Shown here: piece by piece, positions 29,305 through 37,688 of the stretch
Layout of the letters: the number at the start of each line of letters is the position of its first letter
Position numbering within the stretch: the first letter of the stretch is position 1
Source of the DNA: Candidatus Nitrospira allomarina
Lineage (GTDB): Bacteria; Nitrospirota; Nitrospiria; Nitrospirales; UBA8639
Reading direction: 5' to 3'
DNA: 64,000 bases
Assembly: GCF_032050975.1 (NCBI RefSeq)
Contig: NZ_CP116967.1
Coordinates: 2,539,001 to 2,603,000 of the forward strand
The notes under the pieces: generated by a model
What the model saw: only the letters and a program-made list of their open reading frames with translations
The model's database searches: none
What the model was told of the DNA's origin: nothing
Position numbers and translations under genes: made by a program

Positions 29305-30639
29305 CTATTGGGACAAAATGCCCTTTTCCGAAGGAGTGGCTTGATACGTGGATTGTTCGTCCTCCAACCGCATCTCATCATAAATGAGGTATCCGTTGAC
29401 TGCTCGAGCGGATTCGCGAACCCATCCCATGGCTAAAAGAATGATCACCGTCAATACTGCCAACGTCATCAACATACCCGCCATCCTTCGCGGAGCTGCG
29501 GACACGGCTCTTGAAACGGTGGCTTGTGGCATTCGCCCAAACACCCGCAAGGAGTACAGCCAATGTGCAAATCCAAAGGTCACAAGACTTGAAAGCGCAA
29601 AATATTTATACGGTTGCATCTTCCCAATGGAGTTAATTTCCTGTTCGGTCAACCGATTGAGAAGAGGGATATGCTGCAATTGATAGGGCATCGCCAACGT
29701 CACGGTAGCGATCACGATGACAATGAGTGACAAGGGGATGAATCCCATGAAAGATGGAGGTGGTTGTGATTGAGACCGAACCATCTGGTTAACATACAGA
29801 GAACCGACCAGTATCAATAATCCATACAACAACGCCGCGACATCAAAAAGCCACGAGCGTTCTCCTAGCATCACGGTATAAAAGGCCTGGGGTTGTCCAT
29901 ATCGCAAATGAAGCAAATACTGATATCCCACGACCGGCATGACCAGCAGAGCTCCATAGCCGATTACAAAACAGTAACTTCCCCCTTTATGGAAAAAGTT
30001 TCGATCTATATCAATGGTAGATTTCAGATATCGGACGCCACAGATCCCACCGAGGGCAAAACCCGCCCAAGTCAGATTGCCGAACCACCGGTGAAGATCC
30101 AAATGAATCATCGTGGGATTAAACACATTCTCCCATGCCGAATGAATGGGATCCGGGGTCAGCATGTAGGAAGCGGTGATATCGATCATAAACATGGCAC
30201 TTAGGGCACAGCCTGCGGCAAGCCAGATAAAGGCCAAGTGCACCTTTTGCCTCCACCCATGCCGTCCCCATTCCCAGAGGTAATACCAGGCATAGGCAAA
30301 AATCGCTTCTCCCAAAAACAATGCCGCCTCTCCCAAAAACGGCCAAAACATTACCTGAAACAGACGGTGCCAGAATTGAGGCCAATAGATGTTCAGCGCA
30401 AACACCAGCACGACGCCAAAAAATGAAATGGTTGCAGTGGAAAGCACCAATGCGAAGGCAATCAGCTTGGCCAACCGTTGGAACCATTCTTTTTCCGTGA
30501 CAAAGCTAAATGTTGCAGTCACCGCGCCGATTAAGGATGATCCCACAATGAACGTGGCAAATAAGCTATGCGTCAGTGCAGAAGCGGCAATCGCCACACG
30601 CCCGATGGTCATAGAAGTTTCAAGTGGATCAAGGGTCAT
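29305..30639 (-). CDS. Cytochrome bd subunit I-like protein B (with heme-ligand glutamates)
   Basis: A 444-residue membrane protein with about nine helices, homologous to cytochrome bd subunit I. His24 (ALTHSLFATFIVG) matches the TM1 heme ligand. Glu104 and Glu111 (FLGEAALFLGEAIFAYAW) match the acidic pair around heme b595. His183 (DLHRWFGNLTWAG) matches the heme b558 ligand. The quinol loop and GRQPW motif of true bd oxidases are absent, so quinol is an unlikely direct donor. It is the last gene of the operon and overlaps its paralogue by four bases (ATGA). I infer it is the oxygen-reducing subunit of an ACIII-linked complex. Nitrospira is known to carry divergent bd-like oxidases. Confidence 0.8.
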   Translation of the reverse strand: MTLDPLETSMTIGRVAIAASALTHSLFATFIVGSSLIGAVTATFSFVTEKEWFQRLAKLIAFALVLSTATISFFGVVLVFALNIYWPQFWHRLFQVMFWPFLGEAALFLGEAIFAYAWYYLWEWGRHGWRQKVHLAFIWLAAGCALSAMFMIDITASYMLTPDPIHSAWENVFNPTMIHLDLHRWFGNLTWAGFALGGICGVRYLKSTIDIDRNFFHKGGSYCFVIGYGALLVMPVVGYQYLLHLRYGQPQAFYTVMLGERSWLFDVAALLYGLLILVGSLYVNQMVRSQSQPPPSFMGFIPLSLIVIVIATVTLAMPYQLQHIPLLNRLTEQEINSIGKMQPYKYFALSSLVTFGFAHWLYSLRVFGRMPQATVSRAVSAAPRRMAGMLMTLAVLTVIILLAMGWVRESARAVNGYLIYDEMRLEDEQSTYQATPSEKGILSQ

Positions 30640-31820
30640 GGGAATGTCTCTCCCCTCAATGTCGATTCCGTCTGACTGTTGATCATTCCACGAATGGTAT
30701 CCGGCCCTCTCGCCACTTCCCGGATGGTTCCCATTGTCAAATAGAGGACCAGCGCGGCCAGACCAAGGGCCATGGCGATGAAGTGAATGAACGGTTTGTT
30801 GAGTGAGGGCGTTGAGCCACGCATCCAAACGGGAAACACATACAAAAGGTACCACCCCGTTTGAAGAAGCACGATAAAATTCACGATACGCCGATACAAT
30901 GGATAGGGCGCCAAAATGACCATCAACACGATCGTCAGCACATAAAATATCTCTGCCCGGTAGGAATGTCCCCGTTCCAGATGCACCGAGCGAAAAATGA
31001 GATGACTGCCTAACAGGAGTAGAGCCAGGAGGGTAAATTGCCATATCACCAACAGGACTGTTTGGCCTTTATAGAGACCCTGCAGAATATCCGGCTGTGC
31101 ATGGTGTATGTGTTGCGCGAATACGAAACCGGAGACCGGCTGAATCATGAGGCTCACAATGCCGACGGCCATACCTGTTTTTATGAGCGTGAGGTAATAG
31201 GCCTCATCCTTCATTTGACCCGATTGTTTCCATAGGCGCCATCCGGCATACGCCGCCATGACATATCCGGCGATGACCAGATTTCCAAAGAATCGATGGA
31301 CCATCAAGGGCACCCATGTCGGGTTCCAGAGCCTTGCCCATCCGCTATCGCCTTGAACAGGAGTCATCATATACGAACCGATCCCGTCAAGAATTCCTCC
31401 CCATATCAGAATGAATACGGCGGCTACCGTACCCAACGTGATATGCCAGGTGATACTTTTCGAACGAAGCCGATCCCAAAAGTGATAATAGGGATACAGG
31501 CACAACACTTGAATGAAAAACACGATCAAAGCCAGATGCAAAGGATAGCGGAAGTGGTTAAACAGGTAGGTATTCGTGAGAGGGAAAAGTCCGATGAATA
31601 ATTCCAACATAAAGACAGCCAACACGATGCTGGTGGTATACGTCACCAGCGTAAATCGTGTGGCCAGATAGGCAAAATCCGTAAAATAGGGACGACTGCG
31701 TCCCAATCCTTCCGCGATAGGCGCCAGAACCATGAATCCCACACCAAGACTCGCCAAGGTAATATGGGCCAAACTAAAAAAGCCGATCCAAAAACTTGAA
31801 CTCGTCATCTCGTTTACCAC
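30636..31820 (-). CDS. Cytochrome bd subunit I-like protein A (lacking the glutamate pair)
   Basis: A 394-residue membrane protein, paralogous to its downstream neighbour. Shared landmarks are SYMMTPVQ and NPTWVPLMVHRFFGNLVIAG, the latter carrying the b558-type histidine (His175). His19 sits in TM1 (LAHITLASLGVG). A gapless alignment of the TM3 region puts Ala97 and Gln104 where protein B has Glu104 and Glu111, so the b595/d site should be lost. It probably acts as a structural or electron-entry partner, loosely like CydB, although it is not CydB by sequence. The start is GTG 31820 or ATG 31808. It follows actE by about 20 bp in the same operon. Confidence 0.78.
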   Translation of the reverse strand: MVNEMTSSSFWIGFFSLAHITLASLGVGFMVLAPIAEGLGRSRPYFTDFAYLATRFTLVTYTTSIVLAVFMLELFIGLFPLTNTYLFNHFRYPLHLALIVFFIQVLCLYPYYHFWDRLRSKSITWHITLGTVAAVFILIWGGILDGIGSYMMTPVQGDSGWARLWNPTWVPLMVHRFFGNLVIAGYVMAAYAGWRLWKQSGQMKDEAYYLTLIKTGMAVGIVSLMIQPVSGFVFAQHIHHAQPDILQGLYKGQTVLLVIWQFTLLALLLLGSHLIFRSVHLERGHSYRAEIFYVLTIVLMVILAPYPLYRRIVNFIVLLQTGWYLLYVFPVWMRGSTPSLNKPFIHFIAMALGLAALVLYLTMGTIREVARGPDTIRGMINSQTESTLRGETFP

Positions 31821-31839: not shown

Positions 31840-32361
31840 TTAACCCGGCGAATTCGGGTTTTGGATCAAAAGACTGGCGGATGGCGCATGATCCGAAAAA
31901 GTCCGAAGGAATGCCACCAAGGCCCATCTTTCTTCCTGAGAAAGAAATGGTTCAAACGCGGGCATCACATTTTCTCCATGAGTGACAATGGTATACAGCA
32001 TCTCATCCGGTTTCTGTTGCACCGCCGAAGCGTGAAGATTGGGGGGCAGGTCGGGCAGATACCCGGCCACCGGTCCGTCACCCATTCCCTGTTCTCCATG
32101 ACAATGGGCGCAATTAATTGCAAAGAGACGTGCGCCATCGGTCGATTCTTTGGTCTGTTCCCGCGGAGATGTAGTAAGGGAAAATGGCGTCATATTCGGA
32201 GAGCTTTCCGGCGGTGAATGCACCCGGGGAGCTTCTTGATACGAAAATGAAGGTTGTTCTTCCATATCTTCCGAGCATCCCCACAGAAACAGCCCAGCCA
32301 ACGTGATCCAACCCAGGATACGGAACGAGCGGTTCAAACCAAAATTATTCAGCATCATCAT
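31840..32361 (-). CDS. actE: ActE-like monoheme cytochrome c lipoprotein of alternative complex III
   Basis: A 173-residue protein. The signal segment ends in a lipobox (FLWGC, about residue 29). A disordered linker rich in Pro and Ser precedes a class I cytochrome c domain with heme motif CAHCH (in FAINCAHCHGEQGMGDGP) and probable methionine ligand in GENVMPAF. In ACIII, ActE is the periplasmic monoheme subunit that can hand electrons to an oxidase. Three consecutive ATGs make the exact start uncertain. It lies 6 bp after actD and directly before the bd-like genes, the position expected for an electron bridge. Confidence 0.85.
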   Translation of the reverse strand: MMMLNNFGLNRSFRILGWITLAGLFLWGCSEDMEEQPSFSYQEAPRVHSPPESSPNMTPFSLTTSPREQTKESTDGARLFAINCAHCHGEQGMGDGPVAGYLPDLPPNLHASAVQQKPDEMLYTIVTHGENVMPAFEPFLSQEERWALVAFLRTFSDHAPSASLLIQNPNSPG

Positions 32362-32367
32362 CGGCCC

Positions 32368-32916
32368 TCATGAGTCACTGGAAATGGTCCGAATTTCCAC
32401 TTCAGAAGCTCCGGCTTTTTGAAGCAGGCGGGATATAGAGTGGGCCTTGGCAGTGTCATTCCCAACCTGAATCGATAAACCTACCGATCCCTCATCAATG
32501 CGCGGGTCATTGCGAAGACCCGACTGTTGCACGAAGGCAATTTTGATCGCTGTCGCTAAAAAGGTCACGACAATCGCCATCAGCATCATGGTTTCATAGG
32601 AGATAATTCCCACCACCGGAATACTCACAATGGGTTTCCCTCCCGTCACTAAGGGAAACAGGAGTGCGGTTCCTGCGGCGAAAAATATCCCGATTCCAAT
32701 TCCCACGATCCCTCCGATAATGGTCAGGCGATGGAGCGGGACGCGAACCGGCTTATTGAGCAAAGAGGTTTCCAGCGGAAGAGGAGAGAGAATTTCCATA
32801 AGGAGATCGGGAATGCCCTGGCTTCGTATGTGATCAAGCACAGGAGGGAGAGAAGTCGCCGGATTGAATAATCCCAGCACCACGTGCCTGTCCGTCGTCT
32901 CAGTGTTCTTGGGCAT
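32368..32916 (-). CDS. actD: ActD-like DUF3341 subunit of alternative complex III
   Basis: A 182-residue protein with DUF3341 features. An N-terminal alpha/beta part opens HVVLGLFNPATSLPPVLDHI. Two membrane helices follow (about 63-90 and 98-125, TIIGGIVGIGIGIFFAAGTA and ISYETMMLMAIVVTFLAT). The polar C-terminal tail reads LLQKAGASEVEIRTI. ActD has no cofactor and helps assemble the ActC/ActF membrane part. Its start lies inside the end of actC (17-bp overlap), showing tight coupling. The order C-D-E is conserved among ACIII operons. Confidence 0.88.
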   Translation of the reverse strand: MPKNTETTDRHVVLGLFNPATSLPPVLDHIRSQGIPDLLMEILSPLPLETSLLNKPVRVPLHRLTIIGGIVGIGIGIFFAAGTALLFPLVTGGKPIVSIPVVGIISYETMMLMAIVVTFLATAIKIAFVQQSGLRNDPRIDEGSVGLSIQVGNDTAKAHSISRLLQKAGASEVEIRTISSDS

Positions 32917-34228
32917 GTTTTTTCCCCAGTTTTTCTTCCCAGATCGAAATCACCGGTACGAATTTCACCGCAAGCGAATACAGCAGGAGAGCCAAGGCCA
33001 ACGTGCCTACCAGAATGGCGAACTCTATCAGCGAAGGGAAATACTCATCCCACTGAAATGAGAGCCTCGGATGGGCAAGGGGAGGGACAATGATCAGCAT
33101 GCGCTCGATATACATGCCGATATTGATGATCAGCCCAACCATCAGGAGTCCTACGGGCCATTGTCGAAAACGAGGCCATATCAGCGTCATCAGGGGAATG
33201 ACATAAATACAACTCACCATGAACCAGAAGGGCACGGCATACGCTCCGTAGAGAAGAGAATTCTGCACGGCAATATGATCGGGCATATTGCCATACCAGA
33301 CAGTTAATTGCTCAGCAAAATACAGATAGGCCAGGAGCAGGGTCGTGACCAGCATCAATTTCCCGAGTTTTTCAAAATGTTCGGTTCGAACATAATCATG
33401 CAGACGATACACCCTGCGCAGGGTATACAGCCCAATCACCACCATCCCCAAGCCTGAGTGCACCGCGCCGACCACAAAATAAGGAGCAAAAATAGTCGAA
33501 TGCCATGCCGGCACAAGAGCCATGCTGAAATCAAATCCGACAATGGAATGCACCGAGATCATGACCATCACGATCAGGGGGGTAATAATGCGTATGGCCA
33601 TTTCCAATGTGCGCCACTGCGCTTGAGATCCATGCCATCCTATCGCCAGCCAGCGATACACGGTTTTTCTCCATCCTTGAATTCGATCCCGTGCCAGCGC
33701 AAAATCGGGAATTAAGGGCAGATAAATATAGATGGTGCTTGCGGTCGCATACGTAAAAATGGCTGTAGCATCCCACATCAGCGGAGATCGAAAGTTCGGC
33801 CAGAGTTCCCGTTGATTGGGGTATGGAATCAGATAATAAAACCGCCAGACCCGACCCAGGTGATAAAAGACGAATAACGCGGTGACGAAAAGGGCCACAA
33901 CGGTCATGAGCTCAGCCATACGCGTGACAGGTCGACGCCATTCGGCATTCGTTAACCGCAAGACACCGGAAATAAACGTTCCGGAATGGCTGACGCCGAT
34001 CCAGAAGACGAACGAGGCAATATAGGATCCCCAGAAAATGGGATGATGCAAATTGGTTTGTCCGATACCCGTTTGAATTTGGTACGTCCACGCTCCCGCC
34101 CCCGCTGCGACAAAGCAGGACAACACGCCTACCCAGAGATAATACGTCCAGGTGGTTGTCTGGAGCGGCAAGAGAAGGTCCCGATTGATCTTGGGCATTT
34201 CCTCCCAAACCGTTGGCCGGTCGGTCAT
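32900..34228 (-). CDS. actC: ActC-like NrfD/PsrC-family quinol-binding membrane subunit
   Basis: A 442-residue integral membrane protein with about ten helices, matching NrfD/PsrC. Landmarks are the N-terminal amphipathic PKINRDLLLPLQTTTWTYYL, then WGSYIASFVFWIGVSHSGTF and VHSIVGFDFSMALVPAWHST. In ACIII, ActC holds the periplasmic-side quinol site and passes electrons to the iron-sulfur subunit. Only one NrfD-type gene is in the operon; classical ACIII also has ActF. It overlaps actB2 by four bases (ATGA) and actD by 17. Confidence 0.9.
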   Translation of the reverse strand: MTDRPTVWEEMPKINRDLLLPLQTTTWTYYLWVGVLSCFVAAGAGAWTYQIQTGIGQTNLHHPIFWGSYIASFVFWIGVSHSGTFISGVLRLTNAEWRRPVTRMAELMTVVALFVTALFVFYHLGRVWRFYYLIPYPNQRELWPNFRSPLMWDATAIFTYATASTIYIYLPLIPDFALARDRIQGWRKTVYRWLAIGWHGSQAQWRTLEMAIRIITPLIVMVMISVHSIVGFDFSMALVPAWHSTIFAPYFVVGAVHSGLGMVVIGLYTLRRVYRLHDYVRTEHFEKLGKLMLVTTLLLAYLYFAEQLTVWYGNMPDHIAVQNSLLYGAYAVPFWFMVSCIYVIPLMTLIWPRFRQWPVGLLMVGLIINIGMYIERMLIIVPPLAHPRLSFQWDEYFPSLIEFAILVGTLALALLLYSLAVKFVPVISIWEEKLGKKHAQEH

Positions 34229-34962
34229 TCCGACAGCCTCCGCAAATAGGTCACGGCCGGATGCGTGCCCAGAGATTCCATCAAATGAAATCCTCTCCGG
34301 CTCTTCTTCAAGTGAGACACCCGGCTTTCGGGATCGTTCCGATCACCAAAAATCAGTGCGGATGTGGGACAGGATTGCACACAGGCGGGTGTGATTTCTC
34401 CATCTCTGACCCGCCGGCCTTCTTTGTGAGCTGCTTCTTTTCCACTTCGAATTCGTTGCACGCAAAATGTGCATTTTTCCATCACACCGCCGGATCGGAC
34501 GGACACATCCGGATTCAACTGCTCCGCCAACGGCTCGTCCCAATGGGGATCGAACCAATTAAATTGACGGGCGACATAGGGACAGTTATTCCCGCAGTAT
34601 CGAACACCGATACACCGATTATAGACCTGGGCATTCAACCCCTCCGGGGTGTGATACGAAGCATAGACGGGGCAGACGGGTTCACAGGGAGCATCGTCAC
34701 AATGCTGGCACATGACCGGAAGGAATTTGGCTTTGACGTTGGGATAGTCTCCTTCCCAATATCGCTCAATGCGAATCCAATTAATCGCTCGCCCCTCTGC
34801 GGCTTCCTCCTCCCCGGAAATGCGAATATTGTTTTCGGCATGACACGCCACTACACAGGCTTCACATCCGGAGCACCGATCCAGATCGACGACCATTTCC
34901 CACTTATAGGACGATGCCGCCGTGTTTGAATATTCTTCCGTTGCTTGAGGATCTTGACTCAT
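34225..34962 (-). CDS. ActB2-like iron-sulfur subunit of alternative complex III
   Basis: A 245-residue ferredoxin-type protein with four cluster motifs: CSGCEACVVAC, CQHCDDAPCEPVC, CIGVRYCGNNC and CTFCVQRI paired with CVQSC. In the third, Val replaces the usual second cysteine. That is the hallmark of a [3Fe-4S] cluster in ACIII ActB proteins, so three [4Fe-4S] and one [3Fe-4S] are predicted. It carries electrons from the quinol site to the heme subunits on the periplasmic face. No signal peptide is present; it is likely co-exported with ActB1 through its Tat signal. Its start overlaps the actB1 stop (TAATG). Confidence 0.88.
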   Translation of the reverse strand: MSQDPQATEEYSNTAASSYKWEMVVDLDRCSGCEACVVACHAENNIRISGEEEAAEGRAINWIRIERYWEGDYPNVKAKFLPVMCQHCDDAPCEPVCPVYASYHTPEGLNAQVYNRCIGVRYCGNNCPYVARQFNWFDPHWDEPLAEQLNPDVSVRSGGVMEKCTFCVQRIRSGKEAAHKEGRRVRDGEITPACVQSCPTSALIFGDRNDPESRVSHLKKSRRGFHLMESLGTHPAVTYLRRLSE

Positions 34963-37157
34963 TACAAACCTCCCGTTTCCTGTATACGCCCGATGACAGG
35001 GTTTTTCCCGAATTCCTCCAACATCGGCAACCGCGATCCGCCTTTGAGGCGCTCAACACGAACCCGCGTCCCTCCTGTGGCCAGAGAACCCGATTGACTA
35101 TCAAAACTAGGACCAAGCAAGGCCATGGGATTAACTCCGCGCCCCTTGGCATATCGTCCGTACGCACGGTGACCCTGGCCTATGGGAACGGCAATCATGT
35201 CAGGATGCAAGCCTGGAAACATCATGGCTGAGGCTTCGATCGACCCATAATCCGACGTGACTCGAACCCGGTCGCCGGGATGTATTCCTAACGCCTGCGC
35301 CGTGGTTGGATTGAGTTCAATCCAACTTCCCCACATGCCGGTGGTGAGAGGATCCGGCAATTCTTGAAGCCAGGGACGATTGGCCCCACGCCCATCATGC
35401 AACCCCAGGGACGGATAGGGATAACAATATAGAGGGTAGTCGGCGGAATCCCCCAGGAATTGCGGCGGTTCATAGGTGACGGAGGGTATGACCGGGTTCA
35501 TCTGGCGCATGGGGATGTGGGAAGGCCACAACCCGCCCTCCTGCAGAGTCTCTCTCCAGCCGGTATCAAATGGCTGTGCCGAGTCATACTTCGTTAAGAC
35601 AGTCTGCCATCGGCTCTTCAGCATTTCGTGAAGGGTATTCCATGGAACCCGTTCACGGAGAGGTCCCCCCAATCGATGAGCGGCGTCCAACCACACATCA
35701 CCGATGGGCCTTGTGTCATAGAGCACACCCACCACAGGTTGCGATACACTCCAGACCGGCACGGGGTTCGTATCCTGTTGAACAACCTCCCCCCAGGATT
35801 CCAGCGGGTCATGATCCGGCAGAATCAGATCAGCCATCATAGTCGAGTCATCAAGGAAGGAACTAAAACTTACGATGAATTGCGCATGGTCAAACACCCG
35901 CTCAAATTCCAGTGACGGTGGAAGGGTGAACAGAGGATCGGCGCGATATAGATGAAGCAGGGTGCGGGATCCTTGTTCAAACTCCCGGGCCAAATCCATG
36001 AGCGTCCGCTCACTGGCCAATCCGGGTCGGGCAAGATCCACCGGCGAGATTTGAGGTTCCATCCACTGGAGTCCGCCGCGCCGTCCGATAGCGCCGATCA
36101 TCACGTTGAGTGCGTTAATGAGGATAAGAGTTGTTGTGCCGTTGGTCTGGGCCGCAGCCGGACCCCCACCCAGAATTAGCGGAGCGTTCGCTGATGTCAG
36201 TTCATGCGCCAGTTGGGTGATCACCTCTTTCGAGACTTCGGTATTGGCCGAAATATCTTCTAATGAGAAAGCAGTAAAGGTTTGGTGAAAAGATGTCCGG
36301 TGAAAGGAAGAAAGTCTTGTCAGGCCATCCCGTAATAAGACCTGTCCAATGCCCATCGCCAGTAACCCTTCGGTTCCCGGCCTAAGAGGAATCCATTGAT
36401 CCGCATTCGACGCGGTGAGGGACAGGCGCGGTTCCACCTGAATAAAACGACCTCGAACCAACGGGCGGCCCTGACGGAATTTTCCATAGGCCACACCAAA
36501 AGACACTGGTGAGAGCCAGTGTTCAAGGAATGGTGCACCGAATGACAAGAGGTAATCCGCATTGGCCAGGTCATAATAAGGAAGGTCATGGGTTCCAAAG
36601 CTGAGATGGTTGGCTGTTCTGAGAGTCTGTTCCCCCGTGGATTCATACATCACAAGACGACCGGATAGGGAATCCAACAATGTTGTCAACAGGCTGGCTA
36701 ATGTGCCTGACACCGGACGGGTAATCATCGCGGACTTTCCGGCATGCGTTCGTAACTGCTCCACCCATTCTGTTAGGCCTTCTTCCCAGGTAATCGGCTG
36801 GAATTGGCCTTGACCTCTTTTGCCTTCACGTCTTAGAGGACCTTGAAGGCGGTCGGGATTGTACAGACCCTGAAGGGCGGCTTGTCCCCGGGCACAGAGT
36901 TTCCCCTCATTGACCGGATGTTTGGGATTGCCTTCAATTTTTTTTGCGCGCCCTTCCATCACACGAACTATGGTCCCGCAACCGGCTTCGCATTCCTGAC
37001 ATGTGGAGGCATACCAATTTGCTACTCCGGGAACAATATGGTCGTCCGGCAACAGATAGGGCACGAGGTTATGCACCTCTCGCTCACATCCTGGCAGGGA
37101 TGACCCGGCTGCTGTCAGTCCAAGAATCTTCAATAGAGTCCGGCGATTTAGGTCCAT
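34962..37157 (-). CDS. ActB1-like molybdopterin-oxidoreductase-fold subunit of alternative complex III
   Basis: A 731-residue protein. The N-terminal Tat signal (NRRTLLKILG) overlaps a lipobox-like LPGC. The molybdopterin-oxidoreductase fold follows, with a C-terminal beta-barrel domain (about 600-700, including LNPTTAQALGIHPGDRVRV). The N-terminal iron-sulfur motif CQECEAGC plus LCARG is complete (CX2CX3CX27C). In ACIII the large fold is generally thought not to bind molybdenum. Whether this copy binds a cluster or cofactor is open, because its four cysteines are intact. ActB is split into two genes here rather than fused. It lies 12 bp after actA. Confidence 0.87.
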   Translation of the reverse strand: MDLNRRTLLKILGLTAAGSSLPGCEREVHNLVPYLLPDDHIVPGVANWYASTCQECEAGCGTIVRVMEGRAKKIEGNPKHPVNEGKLCARGQAALQGLYNPDRLQGPLRREGKRGQGQFQPITWEEGLTEWVEQLRTHAGKSAMITRPVSGTLASLLTTLLDSLSGRLVMYESTGEQTLRTANHLSFGTHDLPYYDLANADYLLSFGAPFLEHWLSPVSFGVAYGKFRQGRPLVRGRFIQVEPRLSLTASNADQWIPLRPGTEGLLAMGIGQVLLRDGLTRLSSFHRTSFHQTFTAFSLEDISANTEVSKEVITQLAHELTSANAPLILGGGPAAAQTNGTTTLILINALNVMIGAIGRRGGLQWMEPQISPVDLARPGLASERTLMDLAREFEQGSRTLLHLYRADPLFTLPPSLEFERVFDHAQFIVSFSSFLDDSTMMADLILPDHDPLESWGEVVQQDTNPVPVWSVSQPVVGVLYDTRPIGDVWLDAAHRLGGPLRERVPWNTLHEMLKSRWQTVLTKYDSAQPFDTGWRETLQEGGLWPSHIPMRQMNPVIPSVTYEPPQFLGDSADYPLYCYPYPSLGLHDGRGANRPWLQELPDPLTTGMWGSWIELNPTTAQALGIHPGDRVRVTSDYGSIEASAMMFPGLHPDMIAVPIGQGHRAYGRYAKGRGVNPMALLGPSFDSQSGSLATGGTRVRVERLKGGSRLPMLEEFGKNPVIGRIQETGGL

Positions 37158-37169
37158 GGTTGTTTTCTT

Positions 37170-37688
37170 TTACTTGTGACAGATCCAACAATCGTGAGAG
37201 GCCCCCCGTTGTTCATGGCAGGTCAAACACCAGCCCATTTCATAGGTAGGTGCTCTCGGGGTGCTCGACATGCGGGCAACATTTCCATGGCATGAGGTGC
37301 AGGACAGGCCCGCGAACAGATGCATTTCATGCGTGAAGTAGACATGATCCGGAAGACGCTGCAGTCGGACCCATGGAATCGGCCGTTGTTCTTTCCAATA
37401 GATCTGCAGCATTTTCATACCCGGTGTCTTTTCAGAAAGGGACTCATGACACGTCTGGCACAAGGCCATGGACGGCACCCCGGCCACTGGAGATTGCGTG
37501 GCATACCGATGACAAAATTGACAATGGATGTTCAATGTTCCCGCATGTTGTCGATGGCTAAACCGTACAGGTTGCTGATCTTGAACGGGCAGGTCGGCAC
37601 TTCCGATGGAATACAGTGCGCCGATCCCCGTGGCCACACTTCCGGCTAACAACGCCAAGATGACTCCCTTAATTCTTCCTGACTTCAT
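37170..37688 (-). CDS. actA: ActA-like pentaheme cytochrome c of alternative complex III
   Basis: A 172-residue protein with an uncleaved or signal-type N-terminal helix (about 8-28). It has exactly five CXXCH heme motifs (CQFCH, CQTCH, CTSCH, CLTCH, CWICH), plus distal histidines such as RFSHRQHAG and FTHEMHLFAG. A pentaheme ActA with one membrane helix is diagnostic for ACIII. It collects electrons from the ActB clusters on the periplasmic side. It is the first gene of the operon, so the promoter should lie between it and the PRC-barrel gene at 37773. The ribosome binding site is weak. Confidence 0.9.
   Translation of the reverse strand: MKSGRIKGVILALLAGSVATGIGALYSIGSADLPVQDQQPVRFSHRQHAGTLNIHCQFCHRYATQSPVAGVPSMALCQTCHESLSEKTPGMKMLQIYWKEQRPIPWVRLQRLPDHVYFTHEMHLFAGLSCTSCHGNVARMSSTPRAPTYEMGWCLTCHEQRGASHDCWICHK

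Follow-up and report, generated by a model that had tools for sequence, protein, structure and literature searches.

Nitrite and manganese oxidisers depend on uncharacterised bd-like oxidases, and the locus described here raises the question of how two adjacent genes for CydA-family proteins, only one of which encodes the expected glutamates in TM3, might make up an oxidase. The two proteins, denoted A and B, are encoded in a 64,000-nucleotide stretch of the genome of Candidatus Nitrospira allomarina (NZ_CP116967.1, positions 2,539,001–2,603,000; hereafter the window), and all coordinates given below are window positions on its minus strand. The pair presents a clean comparison, with one fold, one operon and TM3 glutamates in one subunit only, kept across the Nitrospirota. 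It should therefore be testable which bd residues serve O2 reduction and which serve haem binding, and whether complex III can feed a bd-family enzyme via cytochrome c.

Organization of the Locus

Protein A (CydA'), a CydA-family partner subunit of 394 residues, is encoded at 30636–31820, and protein B, a CydA-family subunit of 444 residues with a fuller ligand set, at 29305–30639. The stop codon of A and the start codon of B share four nucleotides in the sequence ATGA (30636–30639). The overlap is identical in the close relatives L012–L014 and suggests that translation of the two genes is coupled. The start codon of B is the ATG at 30639; the mechanically defined open reading frame (29305–31044) overshoots the real gene.

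The pair is preceded on the same strand by the genes of an alternative complex III (ACIII), giving the order actA-B1-B2-C-D-E-A-B from upstream to downstream. The actA gene (37170–37688) encodes a pentahaem cytochrome c with five CxxCH motifs (PF14522), actB1 (34962–37157) a molybdopterin-oxidoreductase-like protein with N-terminal twin arginines (PF00384/PF04879/PF01568; QrcB-like), and actB2 (34225–34962) a 4Fe-4S dicluster subunit with Fer4 domains (QrcC-like). These are followed by actC (32900–34228), encoding an NrfD-type membrane subunit with a putative quinol site (PF03916, E = 7.7e-25), by actD (32368–32916; PF11821 ActD, E = 3.3e-21), and by actE (31840–32361), encoding a monohaem cytochrome c (PF13442, E = 2.9e-17; one CxxCH motif, CAHCH at residue 84) that is the probable electron donor. 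ActA, B, C, D and E were thus all identified by Pfam and QrcA/B/C-like matches. No ActF or ActG was found at the locus, where creA is the next gene downstream of B.

The ACIII of the Nitrospirales has been described as actABCDE with a split actB and with ActF and ActG missing, and in almost all ACIII-bearing Nitrospirales genomes the genes immediately downstream are those of an OR-N5-type CydAA' oxygen reductase (PMC12342949, 2025). The preliminary description of this DNA had called such an A/B arrangement mechanistically unusual. The idea is not new: the same two CydA-family genes directly follow actA, B1, B2, C, D and E in the OR-N5 systems, and no difference from these has been established. 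By its gene arrangement, downstream of an ACIII without ActF/G, the pair corresponds to OR-N5 CydAA'. The OR-N classification is that of Murali, Gennis and Hemp (2021), and their paper reportedly includes an archaeal CydAA' (Caldivirga) composed of two co-associated CydA-family paralogues and acting as a quinol oxidase. A literature search that covered work other than this classification paper found no description of a residue-level glutamate asymmetry in CydAA'. What is added here to the known system is that asymmetry and its deep conservation across the Nitrospirota.

Family Identity and Predicted Fold

The sole Pfam match of either protein was PF01654 (A, E = 7.7e-14 and 51.5 bits; B, E = 1.2e-16 and 60.8 bits; curated cut-off 26.2). 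When compared with hhalign, A matched the CydA profile with a probability of 97.6 over 222 columns, versus 8.1, or no match, for the CydB profile, and the profile alignment of A with B spanned 397 columns. Single-chain AF2 models of A and B had pTM values of 0.86 and 0.80, respectively, and in Foldseek both models matched chains of CydA better than those of CydB. No PF02322 (CydB) gene was present at the locus, and the two PF02322 genes of the genome adjoin canonical cydA genes. A is a CydA-family protein and not a CydB with lost ligands; the candidate identification as a classical CydB was ruled out by the exclusive PF01654 match, the hhalign result and the preference of Foldseek for CydA. 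The earlier view that A does not derive from classical CydB was thereby upheld, and A was not found within CydB.

Foldseek also matched the AF2 model of A to 6btm_C, the ActC subunit of ACIII from Flavobacterium (E = 0.024, prob 0.99, TM 0.39), a weak likeness in fold between CydA-type and NrfD-type subunits.

Haem Ligands in A and B

The preliminary description had contrasted Ala97 and Gln104 of A with Glu104 and Glu111 of B in a gap-free match over TM3, and had noted that both proteins retain the histidines of TM1 and of the HRxFGN motif. All of this was confirmed: the four residues are found at those positions, and the gap-free match was reproduced both in MAFFT and in a profile-profile alignment. 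The TM3 segment of A (31509–31532; coordinates from the reading frame, as for B) runs from the Ala97 codon (31530–31532; YPLHL-A-LIVFF) to the Gln104 codon (31509–31511; IVFFI-Q-VLCLY), and that of B (30307–30330) runs from the Glu104 codon (30328–30330; WPFLG-E-AALFL) to the Glu111 codon (30307–30309; ALFLG-E-AIFAY). The TM1 and HRxFGN histidines are His19 and His175 in A, and His24 and His183 in B. Also common to the two proteins is a C-terminal glutamate equivalent to E. coli Glu445 (Glu368 in A, Glu409 in B), which was absent from the earlier account. B consequently has five of the five residues in the ligand set of bd subunit I, whereas A has His, His and Glu, and neither TM3 glutamate. 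From the His/Met pair that binds haem b558 in CydAB, the histidine is present and the Met393-type methionine is absent in both A and B.

Conservation of these sites was assessed by aligning four groups of proteins, with 16 sequences of A, 16 of B, 10 of canonical CydA and 13 from other bd-like proteins; the roles of the canonical residues have been described (PMC8585947, PMC8324918, PMC8951039). At the E99 site, glutamate is found in B and CydA, alanine or glycine in A, and tyrosine in the other bd-like proteins. At the E107 site A alone departs from glutamate, with glutamine, leucine, methionine or histidine in its place; B, CydA and the remaining bd-like proteins all have glutamate there. 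Among the Nitrospirota A/B pairs, B has both glutamates in 16/16 cases and A has a glutamate at neither site in 16/16, and the asymmetry is therefore not due to chance. The TM1 histidine occurs in every aligned protein of the four groups whose start was covered, and the H186-site histidine occurs throughout. The E445 site is glutamate in A, B and CydA, and serine in the other bd-like proteins (12/12 where covered), and the Met393 site is methionine in 10/10 CydA, leucine in 15/16 B, and leucine or valine in A. Because the TM1 histidine, the H186-type histidine and the E445-type glutamate are retained in all 16 A orthologues, A is not devoid of ligands, and the TM3 glutamate pair alone is missing. 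Of the earlier notion that a catalytic subunit I is paired with a degenerate one, the asymmetric pair of subunit-I-type proteins stands, but the loss of the haem site does not.

In the CydA ligand set of B (His19, Glu99, Glu107, His186 and Glu445) and in its two-subunit membrane organization, the pair resembles canonical CydAB of E. coli, Geobacillus and Mycobacterium; unlike these, it has no CydB, a second subunit derived from CydA, no Met393-type b558 ligand, and genes linked to ACIII. The two TM3 glutamates of B are spaced by seven residues, as in the Geobacillus enzyme, in which the first glutamate is an axial ligand at 2.1 Å (PMC8324918, PMC8951039). By this likeness, the TM1/TM3 haem of B may be His/Glu six-coordinate, in which case the haem ligated by Glu409 may be the O2 site.

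A further column, at the end of TM1 (Glu37 of A; window about 31710–31712), is invariably glutamate both in A (16/16) and among the other bd-like proteins (13/13), and alanine or glutamine in 12 of the 16 B proteins, making up a second A/B asymmetry of opposite direction.

Other bd-Type Proteins in the Genome

Canonical cydAB is present twice in the genome (4.55 Mb, one contig), which also encodes seven bd-like proteins. The same counts were reported for Nitrospira marina, which has two bd, seven bd-like and one ACIII module (PMC8115632). Five other bd-like paralogues of OR-N type (L003, L004, L005, L006 and L008) share with the pair the N-terminal PF01654 core, the TM1 histidine and the H186-type histidine, and with B the E107-type glutamate. 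They differ in having tyrosine at E99 and serine at E445, and in being longer, with frames of 576–697 residues, so that A and B are the sole bd-like pair here with the E445-type glutamate. Since these paralogues have nonetheless been proposed as terminal oxidases, no single glutamate proves or excludes catalysis.

Phylogeny and Selection

In the tree, the sequences fell into four fully or almost fully supported clades, one each for A, B, CydA and the other bd-like proteins; the A and B clades were separate from CydA and from other OR-N sequences. As to the order of the four clades, the best tree joined A with the other bd-like proteins (support 63/7), and AU tests rejected neither A with B (p = 0.29) nor B with the other bd-like proteins (p = 0.45). 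The proposal that A and B arose by a separate duplication of their own thus finds no backing in the branching order. The A and B trees are congruent (distance correlation, Mantel r = 0.78, 0/2000 permutations), and the rate of divergence in A is about 1.5 times that in B. The dN/dS ratio was about 0.15 (0.14–0.16) for A and 0.09–0.16 for B, indicating purifying selection on both.

Proposed Mechanism and Alternatives

Taking gene order and ligand conservation together, we consider it probable (roughly 0.7) that A and B are the membrane subunits of a CydAA' (OR-N5) bd-family O2 reductase coupled to the upstream ACIII, with B as the catalytic subunit and A in the structural place of CydB. The pair would form a translationally coupled heterodimer fed by cytochrome c. 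Quinol would be oxidised at ActB/ActC, and electrons would pass from there to the pentahaem ActA, on to the monohaem ActE and then to the haems in A/B. Reduction of O2 would take place in B, the only subunit with the Glu99/Glu107-type residues that would place and protonate the active-site haem; lacking the TM3 glutamates, A itself should not reduce O2. A probably still holds one or two haems on its TM1 histidine, H186-type histidine and E445-type glutamate, and its part may be to pass electrons on or to lend the complex stability. OR-N enzymes are probably cytochrome c users, and their subunit composition and function are reported to await experimental confirmation (PMC10839748).

A finer division of labour can be proposed tentatively, and we hold it to be somewhat less probable than its converse. 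B would again reduce O2. A, with its His/His/Glu haem ligands kept and the proton-handling TM3 glutamates lost, would carry haem and be the point at which electrons enter from the cytochrome c ActE, standing in for the b558 and the quinol site that CydA has in the canonical enzyme. An association of ACIII with a terminal oxidase would have a parallel in Flavobacterium, for which Sun et al. in 2018 reportedly described an ACIII-cytochrome oxidase supercomplex (PDB 6btm). The partner of ACIII in that supercomplex is a haem-copper oxidase, in place of which the present locus has a bd-family pair.

In another reading, which takes up the degenerate subunit I of the preliminary description, A would be free of haem and have a structural role only, so that a CydB-like subunit would have been invented a second time, independently. 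The loss of both TM3 glutamates in 16/16 A proteins, the absence of the Met393-type ligand and the roughly 1.5-fold higher divergence of A all agree with such a role, but a haem-free scaffold would have no need of the three ligand-type residues that A has kept in every orthologue, and we regard this explanation as unlikely. Less probable still is that the pair forms a haem-b membrane module that does not reduce O2 and serves electron transfer among complex III, cytochrome c and some other partner, for example in reverse electron flow. The missing b558 methionine would be consistent with such a module, and bd-like proteins of Nitrospira also cluster with alternative NxrC genes, with a part in reverse electron transport having been proposed (PMC6606698). 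However, B has the full diheme-site set (H19, E99, E107 and E445), which is the O2-reducing part of CydA, and outside the Nitrospirales an oxygen reductase is often encoded downstream of the act genes (PMC12342949).

That A might be a decaying, pseudogene-like copy of B was also considered. Two conserved residues have been lost and divergence is faster, but the low dN/dS (0.14–0.16), the intact frame, the deep co-retention with B and the many invariant residues refute decay, which we consider extremely improbable.

Distribution among Relatives

A search of the phylum found B orthologues with at least 51% identity in 15 genomes, including that of Ca. N. allomarina itself; the next match was at 33%. 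A lies directly upstream of B in 15/15 of these genomes, and wherever the contigs of the relatives extend far enough, the pair is preceded by act genes. The named relatives are Nitrospirales, Nitrospira and Ca. Manganitrophaceae, together with one contig titled uncultured Nitrosospira. When genome contigs were scanned with specific patterns, matches were confined to the Nitrospirota, apart from that same Nitrosospira contig, and a scan of plasmids with specific patterns returned distant CydA only.

A different arrangement was found on two contigs from Troglogloeales/Manganitrophaceae (L057:2847-7122 and L058:198-4561), where the order is A, Rieske protein, cytochrome b and B, at 37–40% identity, and where no act genes were seen. 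The pair on these contigs, a divergent sister of the one in the window, shows the same asymmetry, with both glutamates in B and neither in A. Linkage to Rieske and cytochrome b genes fits a cytochrome c-fed pair that could be joined to either type of complex III. TO_3 and TO_4 have been described as Manganitrophus terminal oxidases that are joined to components of complex III or of ACIII (PMC9040806). In Ca. Manganitrophus GAC4 (L052:3257-8853), the actB1, actB2, actC and actE frames occur in overlapping pieces, perhaps as a result of assembly or sequencing errors.
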